Source: Pontiellaceae bacterium (lineage in GTDB: Bacteria; Verrucomicrobiota; Kiritimatiellia; Kiritimatiellales; Pontiellaceae). Taken from it: a DNA stretch of 64,000 bases. Shown here one piece after another: positions 12,218-64,000 of this stretch; positions within the stretch are counted from its first letter, which is position 1, and the number at the start of each line of letters is the position of its first letter. The position numbers and the translations under genes are program-made. The notes beneath the pieces were generated by a model. It was not told the DNA's origin and did not search any database. It saw only the letters and a program-made list of their open reading frames with translations. The stretch is from positions 1 through 64,000 of the forward strand of contig JAFGVP010000006.1 in assembly GCA_016937945.1 (NCBI GenBank), written 5' to 3'.

Positions 12218-13789
12218 TCAACTTTTCCGCGGCGGTTTCGGCAACTGCTCAATGTTGCCGCGGGCAAAATCCTCGAAGGCGCTGAGGCCGGCTTTGGCGC
12301 CTTCGCCCATCGCGACGATGATCTGCTTGTACGGAACATCGGTCACATCGCCGCAGGCGTAGATGCCGGTTCGCTGCGTCCGGCAGTGTCCATCCACCAC
12401 GATTTCCCCGCGCTGGTTCAGCTCGACGATCTCCTGGAAAAAGGCGCTGTTGGGCACGAGCCCGATCTGTACAAAGATTCCGTCTGCCGGAATGGTTTCA
12501 ACGGCTTCTGTTGTGCGGTTTTTCACTTCGATGCCGGCTACTTTGTCGCCGTTGTCCAGTACGCGGGTGGACTGACTGTTGGTCAGGACACGGGCGTTGG
12601 GCAATGAGTTAAGCTTGTCGACCAGCACGCCGTCGGCCCTCAGCGCATCACCATATTCAATCAGCACAACGGACTCGCAGATGCCGGCCAGATCGATCGC
12701 GGCTTCCACGCCGGAGTTTCCTCCTCCGACCACGATGACCGGTTTGTTCTGGTAGAACGGGCCATCGCAGTGCGGGCAGAAGGCCACGCCGCGTCCGATG
12801 TTTTCCCGTTCACCGGGGATTCCAAGCTGCCGCCATTTTGCGCCGGTCGCCAGTACCAGCGCGCCGGTGGTCACAATCTCCCCGCCCTTCATGTGCAGGG
12901 TTTTGCGCGGTCCGTCCTCAATGTTCTCAACACGGCGGTTTTCGAGAATCTCAATCGGGTAGGCATCGAGATGCTTGAAGAGATCGGCCGCCAGCTGCGG
13001 GCCTTCGGTGTAGGGGATTGATATCAGGTTTTCAATGCCCTTGGTTTCATTCACCTGACCGCCGATGCGTTCGGCAATGATGGCGGTTTTAAGTCCTTTG
13101 CGCGCGGTATAGATGGCCGCCGCCACGCCGGCGGGGCCGCCGCCGATGATGGCAACGTCATATTCCTTCAGCTCACCCTGCTGTTCGACGGGATCGGAGC
13201 CAAAGTGCGCTTCCAGTTTTTCAAGCAGGTCGGCGAGGTTGGCCTTGCCGGCATGCAGCAGTTTTTCGGCAGCAAATACGGCCGGAACGCCCTGGATCTT
13301 GCGGGATAGAATCTCTTCCTGGAAGTGGGTTCCTTCCACCATCTCATGCTTGAAATCGTCGTGAATGAGCGCCATCAGGTTGAGCGCCTGTACGACATCG
13401 GGGCAGTTGACGCAACTGGTGGATACATAGCTGGTCAGGCGGACGGGGCCTTTGAGCGCCTTGATCCGCTGTTGAATACCTTCATCCGGCAGCTTGCCTT
13501 TGCCGTCGGCATTGAGAATCGCGAGAATAAGGGTGGTGAATTCGTGGCCTCCGGGAATGCCTTTGAATTCGATCGGCAGCGTGCATCCGTTCTTTTCGAT
13601 GCGGAAGCGCAGGTCGTTGATCGGGCGTTCCTCGATTTCAATTTTATCCGATGTCGAGGCCACATCGCGCATCATAGCAACGAGGTCGTTTTGCGCCGGA
13701 TGACCGTGCGCTTCAATGACAATGCGGTAATTTGCCTCAAGATTGGCGAATACAGTTTTCAGCTGTTGTAAGGTTGCTTGATCCAACAT
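12218..13789 (-). CDS. ahpF: Alkyl hydroperoxide reductase subunit F
   Basis: A 523-residue flavoprotein disulfide reductase that passes electrons from NAD(P)H to AhpC. The N-terminal tandem thioredoxin-like region carries CVNC (126-129). An FAD-binding [10 protein letters not shown] follows at about 216, the active-site disulfide CPHC is at 338-341, and a second nucleotide-binding [10 protein letters not shown] comes after it. All redox centres are present and the length is normal. It is third in the likely ahpC - FMN reductase - ahpF operon, 58 bp after the FMN reductase start-to-stop boundary, and is probably induced through the block upstream of ahpC. Confidence 0.97.
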
Positions 13790-13847
13790 GGTTTTTCCTT
13801 GGTGTTATCCGTCTTCGTGATGAAAGAGGTTGTTCAATCTGTTTATG

Positions 13848-14408
13848 TCAGGCCGGAACCAGTTCCTGCAGAAGATGGTTTTCAAACGCGGTCACGTTCT
13901 CTTTCAGTCGTTCATCCTCTGATAAATCTGTAATGAGATTCTGCTTTGCATCAAAGGCGTCATGAAATGCCGGCAGATAAAAATCCGCGTAAACTGCTGA
14001 TGCGCCCCAGTGCGGGACGACCGCTCTCATGGTGGCGAGATTGTTTCGTCCTCCGCCGGGGCCGGGAGCCGTACTCGTAAGGAATACCGGTTTATCCTGA
14101 AAGATTTTTCCATCCATGCGGGAAATCCAGTCGATGATGTTTTTGAAGAACGCGGGCATCATGCCGTTGTGTTCGGGCGAAGCAATCATGAAAGCATCGT
14201 GTGCATCAAACAGGCGGCGCAGCTGCTGGATATTTTGCGGAAAGCCATTGGTCTGCTGAAGTTCCTCGGAATAGATCGGCGCATCAAATTCCCGCAGATC
14301 AATCAGCGTGATCTCGGCGTTGCGAACCTGATCCGCTGCATATTCGAGCAGTTTCCGGTTGATGGAGTTCGAAGCGTTGCTTCCGGCAAATGCGAGGATC
14401 TTTTTCAT
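13848..14408 (-). CDS. NADPH-dependent FMN reductase family protein
   Basis: A 186-residue flavodoxin-like protein. The FMN phosphate loop is AGSNASNSINRKLL at the N-terminus, and SPEHNGMMPAFFKNIIDW is the family signature. Members reduce FMN, quinones or other substrates with NAD(P)H. It sits between ahpC and ahpF on the same strand, so it is probably part of the peroxide response. Its own substrate is unknown. Confidence 0.9.
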   Translation of the reverse strand: MKKILAFAGSNASNSINRKLLEYAADQVRNAEITLIDLREFDAPIYSEELQQTNGFPQNIQQLRRLFDAHDAFMIASPEHNGMMPAFFKNIIDWISRMDGKIFQDKPVFLTSTAPGPGGGRNNLATMRAVVPHWGASAVYADFYLPAFHDAFDAKQNLITDLSEDERLKENVTAFENHLLQELVPA

Positions 14409-56265: not shown

Positions 56266-56281
56266 ATGAGCATATGCTCAT
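56266..56281. promoter_or_regulatory. 16-bp perfect palindrome, candidate operator of the Fe-S operon
   Basis: ATGAGCATATGCTCAT is a perfect palindrome 21 bp before the DUF134 start. It falls between a possible -35 (TTGATT, about 56254) and a -10 like CATATG just after it. A dimeric HTH protein such as the adjacent DUF134 product could bind here; this is an inference. Confidence 0.6.
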
Positions 56282-56302
56282 ATGCGGCCAAGGAGAGATT
56301 CG

Positions 56303-56659
56303 ATGCCGAGACCGGAAAACATTCGTGAAATTGATACCGCCCCGCAGGTGACGTGGTTTAAGCCCGCCGGCGTGCCTATGCGCAACCTGGAGGAAGTTGT
56401 ACTGACGCTTGACGAGATCGAGGCCATACGCCTGGCCGACGCCGAAGGGCTCTATCAGGAGCAGGTCGCTGAGCAGATGAAAGTGTCACGTCCCACGGTA
56501 GGCCGGATTCTTGCATCGGCGCGCGGAAAGATCGCGGACGCGCTGGTGAACGGCAAGGCCATGCGCATTGAGGGCGGAACCGTGGTCTTCCGCGAAAAGG
56601 AACCGGGCAGCTGTCATGGACGTCATCGTCACGGACAGGGTCGCGGCGGGCACCAATAG
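56303..56659 (+). CDS. DUF134 family HTH protein
   Basis: A 118-residue protein. MPRPENIREI and FKPAGVPMRNLEEVVLTLDEIEAIRLAD are the DUF134 signature. Residues 50-80 (LYQEQVAEQMKVSRPTVGRILASAR) form an HTH like sigma-70 region 4. The C-terminus is His/Gly-rich (HGRHRHGQGRGGH) and may bind metal. SD AGGAGAG precedes the ATG. It is first in the operon and is probably its regulator. Confidence 0.9.
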   Translation: MPRPENIREIDTAPQVTWFKPAGVPMRNLEEVVLTLDEIEAIRLADAEGLYQEQVAEQMKVSRPTVGRILASARGKIADALVNGKAMRIEGGTVVFREKEPGSCHGRHRHGQGRGGHQ

Positions 56660-56686
56660 AAAATATATAAAACAAGGAGGCATATC

Positions 56687-56959
56687 ATGCCAAATGGAGA
56701 TCGAACAGGTCCGGACGGTGCCGGATCAGGAACAGGACGAAGAATGGGTTATTGCGCCGGCAACGAAATGCCGGGAAGGCAGTCCGGCGGCGGACGCGGC
56801 ATGGGACGGGGATTTCGCTGTGGAGGACGCGGCATGGGCCGCGGCGGAATGCGCGGCAACCGCTCCGACTCAGAGAATGCTCTGCTTCGTGAAGAGCTTG
56901 AGGCTTTGCGTATGCAGGTGGCGGCGCTCGGTCGGCAGATTGCAGAGCAGAAAGGATAG
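56687..56959 (+). CDS. DUF5320 family small glycine-rich protein
   Basis: A 90-residue protein. It starts MPNGDRTGPDGAGSGTGRR, close to the DUF5320 N-terminus, then has a Gly/Arg/Cys-rich stretch (YCAG, FRCGGRGMGRG) and a C-terminal coiled coil (ENALLREELEALRMQVAAL). Such proteins regularly accompany NifX-like and MinD/Mrp ATPase genes in anaerobes. Function unknown. SD AAGGAGG is clear. Confidence 0.85.
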   Translation: MPNGDRTGPDGAGSGTGRRMGYCAGNEMPGRQSGGGRGMGRGFRCGGRGMGRGGMRGNRSDSENALLREELEALRMQVAALGRQIAEQKG

Positions 56960-56967
56960 GGCCGGTC

Positions 56968-57330
56968 ATGAAAATTGCAGTAACAACCTCCGGTGATCAT
57001 CTGGATGCTCCGGTCGATCCGCGATTCGGGCGGGCGCCGCAGTTTCTGATTTTCGATACGGAAACCGAAGTGATCGGCATCAAGAAAAATACGCAGAATC
57101 TCAATGCGGCGCAGGGTGCGGGCATTCAGTCGGCAATGAACGTCTGTGAAGAATCGGTGGACTGCGTGATTACCGGAAACTGCGGCCCGAAAGCCTATGC
57201 AACGCTCAGTGCGGCCAATGTTTCGGTCTATATCGGCGTGGATTGCACGGTGGGCGAGGCCATTGAAAAGCTGAAACGCGGTGAGCTTGAAGTATCGCAG
57301 GAAGCCAACGTGGAAGGGCATTGGGCTTAG
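56968..57330 (+). CDS. NifX-like dinitrogenase iron-molybdenum cofactor family protein (ORP-like)
   Basis: A 120-residue single domain: MKIAVTTSGDHLDAPVDPRFGRAPQFLIFD, then CVITGNCGPKAYATLSAANVSVYIG. This is the NifB/NifX/NafY cofactor-binding fold; the best known stand-alone relatives are the orange protein (ORP) of Desulfovibrio, which carries a Mo-Cu-S cluster, and MTH1175. Nothing points to nitrogenase. It is 8 bp after DUF5320 and probably binds or carries a metal cluster made by the operon. Confidence 0.9.
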   Translation: MKIAVTTSGDHLDAPVDPRFGRAPQFLIFDTETEVIGIKKNTQNLNAAQGAGIQSAMNVCEESVDCVITGNCGPKAYATLSAANVSVYIGVDCTVGEAIEKLKRGELEVSQEANVEGHWA

Positions 57331-57331
57331 C

Positions 57332-58198
57332 ATGCAGAGCTACACGGAATGTATTCCCTGTTTTGTCCGTCAGGCCTTCGATGCGCTGTGTATGGTTGGA
57401 AGCGACGAGCGTCAGCGTCATCGGGTGCTTCAGCGGGTATTGGTGGAGGCGGCGCGTTTCCCGCTGGACCGTCCTCCTCCGGCCATGGCGCAGGAGATTC
57501 ATCGAATCATTCGCGAAGAGCTGCAAAACGCCGATCCCTACGCAAAAATCAAAGATGCGTCCACCCGGATTGCACTCGATCTTGCGGAAGAGGCCCGGGG
57601 CCTTATCAAGGCGTCCATCGAGCCGTTCCGCATGGCGGTCCGGTTCGCAATCGCCGGCAACATCATGGACTTTGCGCTGGCTTCGGCCTGGGACCGGCTG
57701 GATCTGAACAACTTTATTGAAAAGACGCGGCTTTATCCACTCGATGACGCTGCGGTCGGGCGGCTGCATCGGGCCGTTGATGCGGCGCAGTCCATACTCG
57801 TGCTGGGGGATAATTGCGGGGAAACCGTATTTGACCGCTTGCTGATCGAGCAGATGGCCGGGAAAAGGATTCATTATGCGGTCAAGGGGGCGCCGGTGAT
57901 CAACGATGCAACGTTGGCGGATGCAATCGCCGCCGGACTGGATCAGGTGGCCGAATTGGTTGAAAACGGGAGCGATGCGCCCGGTACGCTGCTCGAAGAC
58001 TGCTCCGAAGCGTTCTGTGAACTGTTTGATTCCGTTGACCTCGTGATTGCAAAGGGGCAGGCCAACTATGAAAGCCTCAACAGCGTCGCCCGGCCTGTCT
58101 TTTTCCTGACCCAGGTCAAATGCCCGGTGATCGGCCGGGATCTGGATGAACCGGTGGGCCGCTGGGTAATCCGTGAACATAAAGGGGCGGGCCGATGA
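57332..58198 (+). CDS. DUF89 (ARMT1-like) metal-dependent phosphatase family protein
   Basis: A 288-residue protein. The N-terminus has a CIPC pair (YTECIPCFVRQAFDAL), as in bacterial DUF89 members. The active-site signature is VLGDNCGETVFDRLLIEQM, with a downstream D-rich VDLVIAKGQANYESL. DUF89 proteins are carbohydrate-phosphate phosphatases proposed to clear damaged metabolites. It starts 1 bp after the NifX-like gene and overlaps the next by 4 bp. Confidence 0.9.
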   Translation: MQSYTECIPCFVRQAFDALCMVGSDERQRHRVLQRVLVEAARFPLDRPPPAMAQEIHRIIREELQNADPYAKIKDASTRIALDLAEEARGLIKASIEPFRMAVRFAIAGNIMDFALASAWDRLDLNNFIEKTRLYPLDDAAVGRLHRAVDAAQSILVLGDNCGETVFDRLLIEQMAGKRIHYAVKGAPVINDATLADAIAAGLDQVAELVENGSDAPGTLLEDCSEAFCELFDSVDLVIAKGQANYESLNSVARPVFFLTQVKCPVIGRDLDEPVGRWVIREHKGAGR

Positions 58199-59028
58199 AG
58201 ATTGCCATTGCATCCGGCAAAGGCGGAACCGGCAAGACCACGCTCTCCTGCGCCATGGCATTTGCCATCGACGGACCGGTCCGGTTGCTCGACTGCGATG
58301 TCGAAGAGCCGAACAGCCACTTTTTTGTACATCCGGCCATCGAATCCGCGGAAGAGGTCTACAGTCTGGTGCCGGAAGTGGATCCTGAAAAATGCACCAA
58401 TTGCGGAGCCTGCGGCCGGGTTTGCCGGTTCAGCGCGATTGTGCCGCTCGTTAAAAAAACGCTGGTTTTCAGCGAGCTGTGCCATAGCTGCGGCGGCTGT
58501 GCGCGGATTTGCCCGTCCGGCGCCATTACGGAAGTCCGGAAGCGGATCGGCACGATCGAAACCGGTCGGCGCGATCATGTTGAATTTATTTCCGGGCAGC
58601 TGGATGTCGGGCAGGCGATGTCACCTCCGGTCATCCGCGCCGTTCTGAATCGTGCATCGGAAGACGGCCTGACGATTGTCGACTCTCCGCCCGGAACGGC
58701 CTGTCCGTTTGTGACCGCCGTCAAGGGATGCGATGCCGTCATTCTGGTAACCGAACCTACGCCCTTCGGCCGGCATGATCTCGGACTGGCTGTTGAAACG
58801 GTTCGTGAGCTGGGCGTTCCCTTCGGCGTGGTTGTTAACCGCTCGACGGCAGAGGAAAACCTGATCAGCGAATACTGCAGGAAGGAAAACATTCCCCTTT
58901 TGCTTCAGATTCCCGAGGACCGGCGCGTGGCGCAGGCCTATTCCCGAGGCCGCCTGCTGACTGACGTCATGCCGGAACTGCGGGACGCCCTGCGTTCGCT
59001 TCCGCAGCAACTGGAGGAATTGGCATGA
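58195..59028 (+). CDS. MinD/Mrp-type P-loop ATPase with inserted 2[4Fe-4S] ferredoxin domain, copy 1
   Basis: A 277-residue protein. The deviant Walker A is SGKGGTGKTT at residues 8-17, then LLDCDVEEPNSH. The inserted ferredoxin domain (about 62-110) has CTNCGACGRVC and CHSCGGCARIC. Switch II is VDSPPGTACPFV. This is one half of the paired Fe-S ATPases seen in ORP-type clusters. It likely forms a heterodimer with the next product. Confidence 0.93.
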   Translation: MKIAIASGKGGTGKTTLSCAMAFAIDGPVRLLDCDVEEPNSHFFVHPAIESAEEVYSLVPEVDPEKCTNCGACGRVCRFSAIVPLVKKTLVFSELCHSCGGCARICPSGAITEVRKRIGTIETGRRDHVEFISGQLDVGQAMSPPVIRAVLNRASEDGLTIVDSPPGTACPFVTAVKGCDAVILVTEPTPFGRHDLGLAVETVRELGVPFGVVVNRSTAEENLISEYCRKENIPLLLQIPEDRRVAQAYSRGRLLTDVMPELRDALRSLPQQLEELA

Positions 59029-59906
59029 AAGAGCTGGTAATCATCAGTGGAAAAGGCGGAACGGGAAAAACCAGTGTGACCGCATCGTTTGCATCGTTGG
59101 CCGGCTCCTGTGTGCTGGCCGACTGCGATGTCGATGCCGCCGATCTGCACCTGATTCTGCGTCCGCAGGTTCTGCAACAGGAAACTTTCATGAGCGGCCA
59201 CGCCGCGGCGATTCGCGAGGCGGACTGTACGCAGTGCGGGCTTTGCGAAACCCTGTGCCGCTTCGATGCCATTCATAACCTGACGGTGGATGCGGTCGGA
59301 TGCGAAGGCTGTGGTGTATGCGTAGAATTCTGTCCGGCGTCCGCTATCGACTTCCCGGAGCAGGCCTGCGGCGAGTGGTTTGTTTCAGAAACGGCCTGCG
59401 GAAAAATGGTGCATGCCCGTATGCATCCGGGCGCGGAGAACTCCGGCAAGCTGGTTTCGCTGGTCCGGCAGGAAGCGCGCAGGATTGCGGAACAGAATCA
59501 AACCGATTTCATCCTGGTAGATGGACCACCCGGCATCGGCTGTCCGGTGATTGCTTCGATCACGGGCGCCGATGCCGTGCTGGTGGTTTCCGAGCCGACG
59601 CTCTCCGGTGAACACGACCTGAAGCGCGTGCTGCAGCTGGCCAGGCATTTCAAGGTGCAGGCGATGGTCTGTGTGAATAAGTGGGACATCAATCCGGACA
59701 TGGCGCAGCGCATTGAGGAGCTGGCGCGCTCAATGGGCGCGGTTCCGGTGGGCCGGATCCCATACGACGCAGCAGTTACCGAAGCGCAGGTGAACGGGTG
59801 TTCGCTGGTCGAGCACTCCAGAGGGCCTGCCGCCAAGGCCGTTCGACAGGTTTGGGATGCGGTCAGGGCGGCGCCTGCTGAAACGGTGGGAGGAGCGCAT
59901 GAGTAA
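59025..59906 (+). CDS. MinD/Mrp-type P-loop ATPase with inserted 2[4Fe-4S] ferredoxin domain, copy 2
   Basis: A 293-residue paralogue of the preceding gene, overlapping it by 4 bp (ATGA). Walker A SGKGGTGKTS, then ADCDVDAADLH. The ferredoxin insert has CTQCGLCETLC and CEGCGVCVEFC, and the switch is VDGPPGIGCP. The two copies differ enough to suggest distinct jobs in a heterodimer. Confidence 0.93.
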   Translation: MKELVIISGKGGTGKTSVTASFASLAGSCVLADCDVDAADLHLILRPQVLQQETFMSGHAAAIREADCTQCGLCETLCRFDAIHNLTVDAVGCEGCGVCVEFCPASAIDFPEQACGEWFVSETACGKMVHARMHPGAENSGKLVSLVRQEARRIAEQNQTDFILVDGPPGIGCPVIASITGADAVLVVSEPTLSGEHDLKRVLQLARHFKVQAMVCVNKWDINPDMAQRIEELARSMGAVPVGRIPYDAAVTEAQVNGCSLVEHSRGPAAKAVRQVWDAVRAAPAETVGGAHE

Positions 59907-60327
59907 GCCGTTGAAGACCCGGGCCCAGACCGTGATGGATGCCTTTGAGTCCCGCCCGAAAAATTTCGGGCCGATGCGTGATGCGTCGGCTCATGCAAAG
60001 ATTACGGGCCCATGCGGCGACACCGTTGAGGTTTGGTTTCGTATTGACGGCGGGCGGATACGGCGCGGCACCTTTATGTCCGATGGTTGTGGCTATTCGT
60101 GTCACTGCTGCAGCACAGCGGTGAAGCTTGCAGAAGGAATGGTTCCCGACGCGGCGGCTGAAATAACCAGGGAACAGGTGCTGGCGGCTGCCGGCGAAAT
60201 ACCGCCGGATCACCGGCATTGTGCCCTGCTTGCGGCCAACACGATTCGCAAAGCATTGATGGAAAGGCCGGACTCAAAACCAAATAGCAGCCTGATCTCG
60301 AAAATCCGAAGGAAGTTTACGCGATGA
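59899..60327 (+). CDS. NifU/IscU-like iron-sulfur scaffold protein
   Basis: A 142-residue protein. Family Cys are seen in TGPCGDTVEVWF, SDGCGYSCHCCSTAV and DHRHCALLAANTIRKAL, matching the three-Cys pattern of IscU/NifU-N. Extra Cys residues (CHCC) in the second site are unusual. ATG 59899 follows SD GGAGG and overlaps the ATPase gene by 8 bp. It is probably the platform where the operon's cluster is built or stored. Confidence 0.88.
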   Translation: MSKPLKTRAQTVMDAFESRPKNFGPMRDASAHAKITGPCGDTVEVWFRIDGGRIRRGTFMSDGCGYSCHCCSTAVKLAEGMVPDAAAEITREQVLAAAGEIPPDHRHCALLAANTIRKALMERPDSKPNSSLISKIRRKFTR

Positions 60328-61160
60328 ATGAATCGATGCCATATGTAAAAATTCTGGTAGATAACCGGGCCGCGCCGGGGTTGGTCGCGGAGCACGGCTT
60401 TGCCGCATGGATAGAGGCCGGCGGAAAAAAGATACTCTTTGACTGCGGGCAGGGAGCCGCCCTGCGCCCGAACAGCGAACGGACGGCGTGTGATATCGTC
60501 CACGCGGATCTCTGGGTGCTGAGTCACGGCCATTACGATCATACCGGCGCATCCGATTATGTGCTGGAACGCAATCCCGAAATCCAGGTTTACGCCCATC
60601 ACGGTATTTTCCGTGAGCGCTACAGTCTCCATCCCGAACAGCCGCCGAAAGAGATTTCCATGCCGTCCGAGCAGCGTCTCGTGGTGGCCAACCTTCCGGA
60701 TTCCCAGCTGCATTGGGTGCGGGAGCCGTTGCAAGTGGCAGAAGGCGTCTGGGCCAGCGGTCCGATTCCCCGTAATCATCCTCTTGAGGATACCGGCGGG
60801 CCGTTTTATCTCGATAGCGAGGGTCACGATGCGGACGCGATTCCGGACGATCAGGCACTCTGGATTGAAACGCCGAGAGGGCTGCTGGTGATCTGCGGCT
60901 GCTGTCATTCCGGGCTGATCAATACGCTCGACTATGCGCGCCGGATGAGCGGCTTCGACAAGGTTTGGGGCATCATCGGCGGATTTCATCTGAAGCATGC
61001 ATCCGAAGAGCGGCTTACGGCCACGGCTGCGGCCCTGAAGGAAATTGCACCGGATTTCATTACGCCGTGTCACTGCACCGGAGACGCTGCGATCGAGTAT
61101 CTCAAAGAAACCCTTTCCATTCCCGTTGAGTCCGGATTTGCCGGTTATGTTGTTGATTAA
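60324..61160 (+). CDS. MBL-fold metallo-hydrolase (MJ0301-like)
   Basis: A 278-residue protein. The metal-binding motif is LSHGHYDHTG, with FDCGQG before it and later CGCCHSGLINTLDY and HLKHASEERL. The pattern matches the subfamily annotated as dihydropterin-ribofuranosyl-aminobenzene phosphate synthase-like (MJ0301), found in anaerobes. It overlaps the scaffold gene by 4 bp. Substrate unknown; a pterin or phosphate ester is possible from family knowledge only. Confidence 0.88.
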   Translation: MNESMPYVKILVDNRAAPGLVAEHGFAAWIEAGGKKILFDCGQGAALRPNSERTACDIVHADLWVLSHGHYDHTGASDYVLERNPEIQVYAHHGIFRERYSLHPEQPPKEISMPSEQRLVVANLPDSQLHWVREPLQVAEGVWASGPIPRNHPLEDTGGPFYLDSEGHDADAIPDDQALWIETPRGLLVICGCCHSGLINTLDYARRMSGFDKVWGIIGGFHLKHASEERLTATAAALKEIAPDFITPCHCTGDAAIEYLKETLSIPVESGFAGYVVD

Positions 61161-61168
61161 GGAGAACC

Positions 61169-61999
61169 ATGAGTACATGCAAGAGTCAGCCGGCGACCAA
61201 TCCGGCACAGGATCAGGAAAAAGTCAATGCGCGCATGGCGCATATCAAGCATAAGATTTGTGTGCTGTCCGGCAAGGGCGGCGTCGGAAAAAGCACCGTC
61301 TCGGTGAATCTGGCAGCCGCCCTGGCCGAAGCCGGTAAAAAGGTGGGCCTGCTGGATGTGGATATTCATGGTCCCAGCATTCCGACCATGCTCGGGCTCA
61401 GGCCGCAGCCGTTTATGGGAACGGCCGATGCGATTGAGCCGGTGGTAGCTGGAAATCTGAAGGTGATGTCGGTCGGCTTTGTGAATGAAGATCTGGATGC
61501 GCCGTTCATCTGGCGCGGTCCGATGAAGATGGGTGTTATCACCCAGTTTCTCGGCGATGTGGAGTGGGGAGAGCTCGACTACCTGATCATCGACTGCCCG
61601 CCCGGAACCGGCGACGAGCCGCTCTCCGTCTGCCAGCTGATCAAGGAGCCCGCCGGTGCCGTCATCGTGACCACGCCGCAGAAGGTGGCCGCCGTGGATG
61701 TGCGCAAATCCCTGACCTTCTGCGGAAAACTGAATATGCCGGTATTGGGAATTGTTGAAAACATGAGCGGCTTTGCCTGCCCGAAGTGCGGTGAGGTCGT
61801 CAATATTTTCCATTCGGGCGGCGGTGCGGAGCTTGCGGCCGATTTCGGGGTGCCGTTTCTCGGTGCGCTTCCGATCGATCCGGCCATCGGGATGGCGTGC
61901 GACGCCGGCCAGCCGTTTGTCCAGAGTTACGCCGCCAGCGAAACCGCGCAGATCCTGCGCGAGATCATCCAGCCGCTTCTGCACATCAATCGGGGATAA
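61169..61999 (+). CDS. mrp: Mrp/NBP35-type iron-sulfur carrier ATPase
   Basis: A 276-residue P-loop protein. Walker A SGKGGVGKST (about 34-43), LLDVDIHGPSIP, VRKSLTF and NMSGFACPKCGEVVNIF, whose CPKC is the dimer-bridging [4Fe-4S] site of Mrp/ApbC. It transfers clusters to apoproteins. It lacks the N-terminal DUF59 domain of long Mrp forms. SD AAGGAG; 8 bp after the MBL gene. Confidence 0.94.
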   Translation: MSTCKSQPATNPAQDQEKVNARMAHIKHKICVLSGKGGVGKSTVSVNLAAALAEAGKKVGLLDVDIHGPSIPTMLGLRPQPFMGTADAIEPVVAGNLKVMSVGFVNEDLDAPFIWRGPMKMGVITQFLGDVEWGELDYLIIDCPPGTGDEPLSVCQLIKEPAGAVIVTTPQKVAAVDVRKSLTFCGKLNMPVLGIVENMSGFACPKCGEVVNIFHSGGGAELAADFGVPFLGALPIDPAIGMACDAGQPFVQSYAASETAQILREIIQPLLHINRG

Positions 62000-62003
62000 T
62001 GCG

Positions 62004-62795
62004 ATGAAAAAACAGGTTCACCACGTTTTCTTTTCACCAACCGGAACAACCCGGGCGGTTATTGATGGGATCTGCCGGGGAACAGGGCTGGCCGACGGAG
62101 TGGTGATTGACCTGACGCACGACACCGGAGTCTCTTCTTCGTTTGGCCCGGAAGATCTGGTTGTGGTCGGCATGCCGGTTTATGCCGGCCGTCTGCCGAA
62201 ACTGGCACTGGAACGGTTTGCCGCAATTTGCGGGAATGACGTACGCGTGGCCGCCGTGGTCGTGTATGGAAACCGCGCCTACGATGATGCCCTGCTGGAG
62301 CTGTGTGACTGTTGCTCAGAGCAGGGATTCCGCGTGGTCGGGGCCGCCGCATTTGTCGGGGAGCATTCCTTCTCTTCGTTGGAGGTCCCGATTGCGCAGG
62401 GCCGCCCGGATAAAGAGGATCTGGTGCGGGCAGAAGCCTTCGGCCAGCATGTGGCGGCGCAACTCCAGGCTCTCGATCTGGCCGAAATTCCCGGGAACCG
62501 CCCTTATAAGGATAATCCGGTATTTCCGGGCGCGGCGGCGGAATCGGATCCGGAACACTGTATCCGCTGCGGCCAATGCGTCGAGGTTTGTCCGGCGGAT
62601 GCCATTACCATGTCTGCTGCATTACCGGAAACCAATGCGGAGGAATGCCTCTGGTGCGAAGCCTGCGTCCGGGCCTGCCCGACCCAGTCGCGCGCCGTGG
62701 TCCTGCCGAAGATCCGGGAAGTCGCCGAACGGCTGCACCAGACCTGTTCGGAACGCCGGGAGCCGAGCTGTTATTTTGAGGACGCCCAATGCTGA
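62004..62795 (+). CDS. EFR1-type flavodoxin - 2[4Fe-4S] ferredoxin fusion
   Basis: A 263-residue protein. The flavodoxin domain (about 1-165) has the FMN loop SPTGTTRAV. The ferredoxin domain follows with CIRCGQCVEVCPADAI and CLWCEACVRACP. A likely electron carrier that feeds the ATPase or scaffold steps of the operon. The ATG at 62004 is 4 bp after mrp. It overlaps the transporter gene by 7 bp. Confidence 0.93.
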   Translation: MKKQVHHVFFSPTGTTRAVIDGICRGTGLADGVVIDLTHDTGVSSSFGPEDLVVVGMPVYAGRLPKLALERFAAICGNDVRVAAVVVYGNRAYDDALLELCDCCSEQGFRVVGAAAFVGEHSFSSLEVPIAQGRPDKEDLVRAEAFGQHVAAQLQALDLAEIPGNRPYKDNPVFPGAAAESDPEHCIRCGQCVEVCPADAITMSAALPETNAEECLWCEACVRACPTQSRAVVLPKIREVAERLHQTCSERREPSCYFEDAQC

Positions 62796-64000
62796 AACTG
62801 CTGCATGCCATTCAAAAGAAACTGATTCTTGCCATTCCGCTGACCATGCTGGCCGGCCTGGCCGCCGGGATCGTCTGGAATCCCGCTCCGCTCAAACAGC
62901 TTATCGTGCCGCTGACTTTTCTGATGGTCTTTCCGATGATGGTCAACCTGCAGCTGAAAAAGGTGATCGAAGGCGGTGACACCAAAGTCCAGCTGGTTAC
63001 GCAGTTGCTGAACTTTACGATTATTCCGTTGTTTGCTTTCGGCATGGGTAAACTGTTTTTTGCCGATGCGCCCTATCTTGCTCTAGGGTTGCTGCTGGCC
63101 AGCCTGCTGCCTACATCCGGCATGACCATTTCCTGGACGGGGATGGCCAACGGCAACATGGCCGCAGCGGTCAAGATGACGGTCTTCGGGCTGATCATCG
63201 GGTCCATTCTAACGCCGATCTATATCAAGGGACTGATGGGAACAGTCATCGAAATTCCCATGGCAAAGATTTTTACTCAGATCATGGTGGTCGTGGTGCT
63301 TCCGCTGGTCCTGGGGAACATGACGCAGCGCCTGCTGATCCGGCGTTATGGGATGGCGCACTACCAGAAGGATCTCAAACCGATGTTCCCGCCTTTTTCC
63401 ACATTGGGGGTGCTGGGCATTGTATTCGTGGCGATGGCCCTGAAGGCCCGCTCCATTGCGGATCATCCCGGCCAGTTGCTCCGCCTGGCTGTCCCGTTGA
63501 TCCTTCTCTATGGCGTCAATTTTGTACTCAGCACGCTGGTGGGACGCTTCTTCTTTAAGCGAGGGGATGCCATTGCCCTGGTGTATGGAACCGTTATGCG
63601 CAACCTGTCGATTGCGCTGGCGATTGCCATGACGGCGTTTGGAAAGGACGGGGCCGAGATCGCGCTGATCATTGCGCTGGCCTACATCATCCAGGTTCAG
63701 GCCGCGGCTTGGTATGTAAAGTTTACGGATCGCTTCTTTGGTCCCGCCGGAGAGGAAACGGTTGGGCAACTGATGCTCGAAGGCGTCTTTTCATTGCACC
63801 GTAGCGACACTCTGCAGCAGGCACTGCAGTTGCTGGCCGAAGAGCATATTCATTCCTTTGTTGTGTTAGGTGAGAACGATCGGCCGGAGGGCATGCTTTC
63901 CACGTCTGCTGTGCTTGATGCCCTGGCTGACGGATTGCCGCGTACGATCACGTTGTCGGATCTTGAGCTTGAACCGCTGGTGGTTGCGACGGCCGCGACT
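62789..64000 (+). CDS. Bile acid/ACR3-type (BART superfamily) transporter with C-terminal CBS-like region, 3' truncated by the window
   Basis: 404 codons run open to the last base, so the 3' end is missing. About ten hydrophobic segments from residue 12 to 320 match the bile acid:Na+ symporter/ACR3 fold, with LLASLLPTSGMTISWTGMA and GTVMRNLSIALAIAMTAFG as the conserved broken-helix repeats. From about 335 (VFSLHRSDTLQQALQLLAEEHIHSFVVL) the sequence turns cytoplasmic and looks like a CBS domain (ending STSAVLDALAD). Start ATG 62789 lies inside the end of the EFR1 gene. It may export an oxyanion or take up a precursor; a CBS domain could gate it by nucleotide. Confidence 0.85.
   Translation, partial: MLKLLHAIQKKLILAIPLTMLAGLAAGIVWNPAPLKQLIVPLTFLMVFPMMVNLQLKKVIEGGDTKVQLVTQLLNFTIIPLFAFGMGKLFFADAPYLALGLLLASLLPTSGMTISWTGMANGNMAAAVKMTVFGLIIGSILTPIYIKGLMGTVIEIPMAKIFTQIMVVVVLPLVLGNMTQRLLIRRYGMAHYQKDLKPMFPPFSTLGVLGIVFVAMALKARSIADHPGQLLRLAVPLILLYGVNFVLSTLVGRFFFKRGDAIALVYGTVMRNLSIALAIAMTAFGKDGAEIALIIALAYIIQVQAAAWYVKFTDRFFGPAGEETVGQLMLEGVFSLHRSDTLQQALQLLAEEHIHSFVVLGENDRPEGMLSTSAVLDALADGLPRTITLSDLELEPLVVATAAT

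Follow-up and report, generated by a model that had tools for sequence, protein, structure and literature searches.

The end of a 64,000-nucleotide stretch of a Pontiellaceae bacterium genome (assembly GCA_016937945.1, contig JAFGVP010000006.1), here called the window, carries most of a 14-gene operon of the orange protein (ORP) kind known from Desulfovibrio. The window comprises bases 1–64000 of an 80,898-bp contig, genes past 64000 were read from the same contig, and genome searches covered 4.28 Mb. From its genes alone, we consider it likely that this is a self-regulated ORP-type operon that builds and distributes iron-sulfur (or perhaps mixed-metal) clusters in an anaerobic host of the Kiritimatiellales. 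The ORP system, with its unusual Mo-Cu-S protein and its localisation at the cell pole, has been studied mainly in sulfate reducers. We know of no clearly established physiology for it, and to our knowledge the host phylum is not known for sulfate reduction. Our analysis places the system across this phylum, adds a dedicated scaffold and identifies partners through gene fusions (NifU with Mrp and Di-Nase, MinD1 with MinD2). The operon appears to be an enlarged form of a kind whose core is already known; what appears new is the regulatory finding on DUF134, a family for which the analysis predicts an operator and a residue that sets its specificity, and points to a likely signal. The features, in contig positions, are as follows.

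56266–56281, strand not applicable: predicted DUF134 operator, the perfect 16-bp palindrome ATGAGCATATGCTCAT, 21 bp before the DUF134 ATG.
56303–56659, plus strand: DUF134 helix-turn-helix protein, 118 aa, predicted autoregulator (PF02001, E 7e-25).
56687–56959, plus strand: DUF5320, a small Gly/Arg/Met-rich protein with a conserved place beside NifX1 (PF17253, E 9e-14).
56968–57330, plus strand: NifX1, ORP (Orp8)-like Di-Nase protein, 120 aa (PF02579, Nitro_FeMo-Co).
57332–58198, plus strand: DUF89/ARMT1-like damage-control phosphatase (PF01937, E 5e-61).
58195–59028, plus strand: MinD1, P-loop ATPase with an inserted 2x[4Fe-4S] ferredoxin, Orp3/4 type (CbiA and Fer4).
59025–59906, plus strand: MinD2, second ferredoxin-MinD ATPase, Orp3/4 type (CbiA/ParA and Fer4).
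59899–60327, plus strand: NifU-like scaffold with an extra conserved Cys, GC-x5-C (PF01592; nearest solved structure A. fulgidus NifU-1).
60324–61160, plus strand: metallo-beta-lactamase (MBL)-fold hydrolase (PF00753; nearest solved structures 2p4z and Tm1679).
61169–61999, plus strand: Mrp/NBP35 Fe-S carrier, predicted N-terminal half of a split MrpORP (PF10609, E 3e-101, ParA/NUBPL).
62004–62795, plus strand: protein with a flavodoxin-like N-terminus and a 2x[4Fe-4S] ferredoxin (Fer4; near the EFR1 family, below its cut-off).
62789–64123, of which the window holds up to 64000, plus strand: SBF/ACR3-like permease with a C-terminal CBS pair (PF01758 and CBS).
64139–65809, plus strand: CoA-disulfide-reductase/rhodanese (CoADR-rhodanese), 556 aa (PF07992, PF02852, PF00581).
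65826–66290, plus strand: DUF302 protein.
66337–66675, plus strand: NifX2, second NifX-like protein, predicted Di-Nase half of MrpORP, 112 aa (C-terminal part of NF041136).
66700–66732: terminator, a 14-pair stem and T tract.

The core of the operon corresponds to the ORP system of Desulfovibrio. NifX1 has the D. gigas ORP as its best solved relative (2wfb, E 4.7e-15). Mrp covers positions 1–250 of the MrpORP model NF041136 (377 bits) and NifX2 covers positions 265–365 (128 bits), with the motifs CMHFGHCE, DPPPHEPGVLP and a terminal CDH; those of the MrpORP Di-Nase domain are CXHFGHCE, TPPPHXPGXXP and CDH (PMC6345978). On profile coverage and motifs, Mrp and NifX2 are thus the predicted two halves of MrpORP. 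The NF041136 equivalog requires both domains in one polypeptide at more than 450 bits, and here they are separate; this split does not exclude ORP function, because the Mrp-ORP domain fusion arose several times independently (PMC6345978). MinD1 and MinD2 each have two 4Fe-4S motifs, with Walker and Cys motifs present in the translations, and are by architecture the putative counterparts of Orp3 and Orp4. With a Di-Nase protein, a MinD pair and an Mrp all present, the core is, judged by gene content, an ORP system with MrpORP split over two genes. The tie to the Desulfovibrio clusters drawn by an earlier, sequence-only reading of the window is stronger than that reading had it, since NifX1 resembles 2wfb and both MrpORP halves are matched with their motifs. 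MrpORP binds [4Fe-4S] and [3Fe-4S] clusters, the [4Fe-4S] being passed from its Mrp domain to Orp3/Orp4 in vitro, and ORP proteins hold a known Mo-Cu-S cluster (PMC6345978). With these clusters already described, the suggestion of an undescribed one is neither supported nor excluded, as sequence cannot discriminate between them.

The operons of D. vulgaris Hildenborough share the ORP-like Di-Nase protein, the two ferredoxin-MinD ATPases and an Mrp with a CXHFGHCE/CDH Di-Nase domain (PMC6345978, PMC3897727). Unlike the single operon described here, D. vulgaris has two divergent ones, and its MrpORP is one protein rather than two genes. The additions here are NifU, DUF89, MBL, DUF5320, the flavodoxin-ferredoxin protein, the permease, the persulfide reductase and DUF302.

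All 14 genes lie on one strand between 56303, the first coding base (that of DUF134), and 66675. Pfam searches found the families named in the sequence-only reading, in the order it gave, and no gap between genes inside the window exceeds 27 bp, as it had claimed. Five of its six overlaps are certain; the sixth depends on DUF89 starting at TTG 57326 instead of ATG 57332. Its count of eleven genes proved too low: the permease gene is cut at the window end, its stop lies at 64123, and three same-strand genes then follow. Directly 3' of NifX2, the 14-pair stem and T tract at 66700–66732 is a strong terminator that closes the operon (z = -4.45 for the RNA fold of this region against shuffles); the next gene, labelled ruvC by eye only, lies ~160 bp past it. 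Within the window part of the operon, terminator-like sites show no excess (8 seen on both strands, 7.5 expected).

To place this gene order among relatives, about 40 loci were gathered from 40 related genomes and then from across the phylum, and were annotated with profiles built from the operon genes. Of 289 phylum genomes, 52 have the MinD pair, each of them with two or more matches. Because some contigs end early, the counts for the 34 phylum loci with MinD2 are lower bounds: NifX2 is found in at least 29, NifX1 in at least 24, Mrp in at least 23, MBL in at least 22, NifU in at least 21, DUF89 in at least 20, DUF5320 in at least 17 and DUF134 in at least 10, with the flavodoxin-ferredoxin protein in at least 5, and SBF and CoADR in at least 3 each. 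DUF5320 keeps its position next to NifX1 in relatives. The complete 14-gene order was seen only in this genome among the loci compared, with L050 the nearest, but the core order recurs in other genomes and does not break up into unrelated operons. With some 40 phylum loci keeping the gene order, the grouping is not due to chance. Outside the phylum, where the spread is drawn from three plasmid-collection records, DUF134-NifX1-MinD1-MinD2-MrpORP occurs in Peptoclostridium and NifX1-MinD1-MinD2 on a Chloroflexota plasmid. When named GTDB contigs were searched with the NifU-like protein, only six loci came up, all Kiritimatiellales/Pontiella.

Gene fusions point to the partners within the operon. 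NifU is fused to Mrp in six loci (L056–L059, L079, L080), Mrp is fused to NifX2 in four (L044, L061, L067, L077), and MinD1-MinD2 is one open frame in about 20 of the 52 phylum genomes with the pair. Read in the simplest way, these separate fusions suggest a relay in which a scaffold hands over to a carrier and the carrier to a client; together with the conserved order, they support one functional unit. That the genes instead belong to two or three transcription units that happen to adjoin, as the insertion of SBF-CoADR-DUF302 between Mrp and NifX2 relative to most relatives might suggest, is very improbable in view of the overlaps and short gaps throughout, the strong terminator after NifX2, the conserved order and the fusions.

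The predicted relay from NifU through Mrp to a client is accordingly the well-backed part of the mechanism that we propose. The NifU-like protein retains the scaffold residues PCGD, GC and HC and has an added conserved Cys, C70, six residues past the second scaffold Cys (GC-x5-C), where housekeeping NifU (L026, L033, L034 and the L058 paralogue) has Ser/Thr; this Cys may serve as a fourth cluster ligand. On this dedicated scaffold, sulfide and iron would be assembled into a cluster, which would pass to the Mrp ATPase, the partner of NifX2 in the split MrpORP. Mrp would then load the paired ferredoxin-MinD ATPases, the Orp3/Orp4 counterparts, and deliver to NifX1. The ORP-like NifX1 would hold a metal-sulfide cluster, and NifX2 would act as the Di-Nase partner of Mrp. 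It is in this direction that we infer the clusters to flow. CoADR-rhodanese could add sulfide from persulfides in this lineage, and DUF134 would bind the GCATATGC palindrome before its own gene and set expression of the operon, probably sensing cluster status through a NifX domain.

The evidence for this control begins with the protein. DUF134 scores 87.9 bits against PF02001 (gathering cut-off 27), and its profile matches are the DeoR DNA-binding domain and sigma region 4. In an AlphaFold2 model, the helix-turn-helix superposes on the DeoR DNA-binding domain with operator (7bhy) at a root-mean-square deviation of 0.6 A over 40 residues, a likeness at motif level (E 0.02). DUF134 has no effector domain of the DeoR kind; it has a C-terminal Cys/His/Gly/Arg tail or, in relatives, a fused NifX domain. 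The palindrome is the sole exact copy in the genome, which has no further site with fewer than two mismatches that would speak for a DUF134 regulon elsewhere, and similar palindromes stand at the same place before the DUF134 genes of relatives. A family search across the phylum supplied 30 DUF134 loci; in 22 of them a site centred on CATATG lies no more than 200 bp upstream, mostly 8–30 bp from the start, whereas 5.9% of random 200-bp windows contain one. Residue 68, which the model places in the recognition helix (residues 63–83, block predicted local distance difference test score 88–94), covaries with an outer base of the operator, the third of the half-site: this base is G in 44 of 44 half-sites when the residue is Arg, and in 0 of 16 when it is Asn, Leu or Lys. 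We therefore propose DUF134 as the predicted autoregulator of the operon, acting through the upstream palindrome. A sigma70 consensus scan upstream of DUF134 gave no match; the palindrome overlaps TTGATT...TCATAT, taken as a promoter by eye only, and for this reason we favour a model of repression, which cluster-loaded NifX would either relieve or impose, over activation.

DUF134 and NifX share one open reading frame at seven loci (L112, L114, L115, L116, L118, L124, L126; Pfam-confirmed in four), which makes NifX the natural candidate for a partner that reads the signal for DUF134. Extending this to the family, DUF134 proteins may be transcription factors that respond to metal-sulfur clusters. 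The helix-turn-helix would read a CATATG-centred palindrome (residue 68/base 3), a NifX/Di-Nase domain, either in the same protein or in trans, would signal the state of clusters or thiometallates, and the product of an ORP-type operon would in this way switch the operon itself; we offer this as a tentative proposal with somewhat less than an even chance of being right. A full-text literature search with partial open-access coverage found no account of DUF134 regulation or published function for the family among the papers listed, and none of the titles listed ties the palindrome to DUF134. The operator and the covariation thus appear to be new.

In D. vulgaris, regulation is by a sigma54 promoter and its cognate enhancer-binding protein; at the operon described here, DUF134 and the palindrome stand in their place. 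Desulfovibrio orp operons have sigma54-type regulation (PMC3897727), and like them, sister clusters of the phylum use sigma54 activators: seven clusters without DUF134 have a PAS-sigma54 activator upstream (two by Pfam, the others by similarity). A strict sigma54 pattern was found before the first gene of none of the activator-type clusters. Relaxed GG-N10-GC scoring placed boxes ~18–23 bp before the first gene in L048, L050–L052 and L076, with controls reaching the same score in 0–18 of 300, and on this scoring most activator-type clusters have a -24/-12-like box. Repeated GTAGC/GCTAC and TTGCA-type elements ~100–170 bp upstream of the first gene in L048, L050, L051 and L052 look like sites for the sigma54 enhancer-binding protein. 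The first gene in several of these clusters (L048, at 13535–13894, L050–L052 and L079) encodes a third NifX-type protein of ~119 aa with a basic Cys/His-rich tail, which may be the counterpart of Orp7.

Several observations weigh against a self-regulated assembly operon. Some clusters are without NifU, DUF89 or DUF134, and one subtype is without the MinD pair, so the relay is not obligatory. Eight of the 30 DUF134 genes have no CATATG-centred site. The covariation has no exception among the scored sites, yet it amounts to about three independent shifts on a rough tree, so that its p of 7e-15, calculated with kinship ignored, overstates it. All seven fused DUF134-NifX frames have a sequence like a ribosome-binding site before an in-frame internal ATG that precedes the NifX domain, and free NifX could therefore be made from the fused gene. 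SBF, CoADR-rhodanese and DUF302 occur mostly within the genus and are therefore perhaps passengers. The complete path of import or export, reduction, assembly and carriage that the sequence-only reading had drawn stands for scaffold, carrier and client; the permease, the persulfide reductase and DUF302 are mostly lineage-specific additions without an assigned substrate.

The same persulfide reductase bears on the chief rival to cluster assembly, namely iron-sulfide storage or sulfide homeostasis, in which NifX and the Gly/Arg-rich tails of DUF5320 and DUF134 would hold an anionic thiometallate, the reductase would give sulfide, and sulfur or iron excess would induce the operon. CoADR-rhodanese matches the A. 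fulgidus NADH-dependent persulfide reductase over its full length (6pfz, E 7e-156), sharing the CoA-disulfide reductase fold and the C-terminal rhodanese domain, and that enzyme yields sulfide from persulfides and polysulfide (PMC7969121). Sulfide supply by this predicted reductase is therefore plausible, mostly as a lineage-specific trait; unlike the A. fulgidus enzyme it sits in an ORP-type operon, and it falls below the TIGR03385 CoADR equivalog cut-off (426 against 578.8 bits). IssA of Pyrococcus furiosus offers a precedent for storage: this NifX/Di-Nase protein handles Fe and S and has a cationic Gly-rich tail, for which thioferrate binding has been proposed (PMC5524996), and DUF5320 and many DUF134 tails are Gly/Arg/Cys/His-rich, so that cationic sequence lies near the NifX genes here as well. 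IssA, however, carries its cationic Gly/aromatic-rich tail at its own C-terminus, whereas NifX1 (120 aa) and NifX2 (112 aa) have no such tail and end soon after the domain, and unlike IssA they are surrounded by a scaffold and ATPases. Since a scaffold, a carrier and two ATPases in the core suit delivery better and the persulfide reductase is an accessory gene, we regard storage as unlikely, and cluster assembly and distribution as the preferred reading.

A second alternative, that the operon is an accessory system for the supply of nitrogenase cofactor, draws on the NifX-like domains and on the PF00148 nitrogenase-family genes and nifB that the host genome carries on other contigs. The sequence-only reading was thus correct locally in placing no nitrogenase nearby, though not for the genome as a whole. 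In genomes that are at least 91% complete, the cluster and PF00148 genes each turn up without the other: the cluster occurs without PF00148 in G014, G025, G033 and G039, and PF00148 occurs without the NifU or MinD2 of the cluster in G018 and G023. Neither NifX1 nor NifX2 matches any NCBIfam nitrogenase NifX model. An accessory role for nitrogenase was rejected because of this two-way dissociation, and we give it a very small chance. The host PF00148 genes lie on C24 and C48, and C115 of G000 (L005, 1–5994) encodes a NifB with a C-terminal NifX domain, a 2Fe-2S ferredoxin and molybdate-transport-like genes. From such gene content the host probably fixes nitrogen. Nitrogen fixation by Pontiella agarivorans is reported in the title of PMC10880615.

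Among the remaining accessory genes, the permease was considered as an ACR3 arsenite efflux protein and rejected (TIGR00832, 85 bits; cut-off 282.8), and the flavodoxin-ferredoxin protein reaches 67.9 bits against NF038196, whose cut-off is 75. An SBF-type gene also adjoins a DUF134-MinD cluster in one distant family (L122). Clusters of the subtype without the MinD pair are L045, L046, L047, L049, L054 and L055, with the order DUF134-NifX1-NifU-Mrp-SBF-CoADR-NifX2 in L047 as an example, and G021 and G016 have both subtypes. Finally, a radical-SAM family recurs near the clusters L055, L060, L070, L075, L078, L080 and L082 (PF04055 confirmed for L055).

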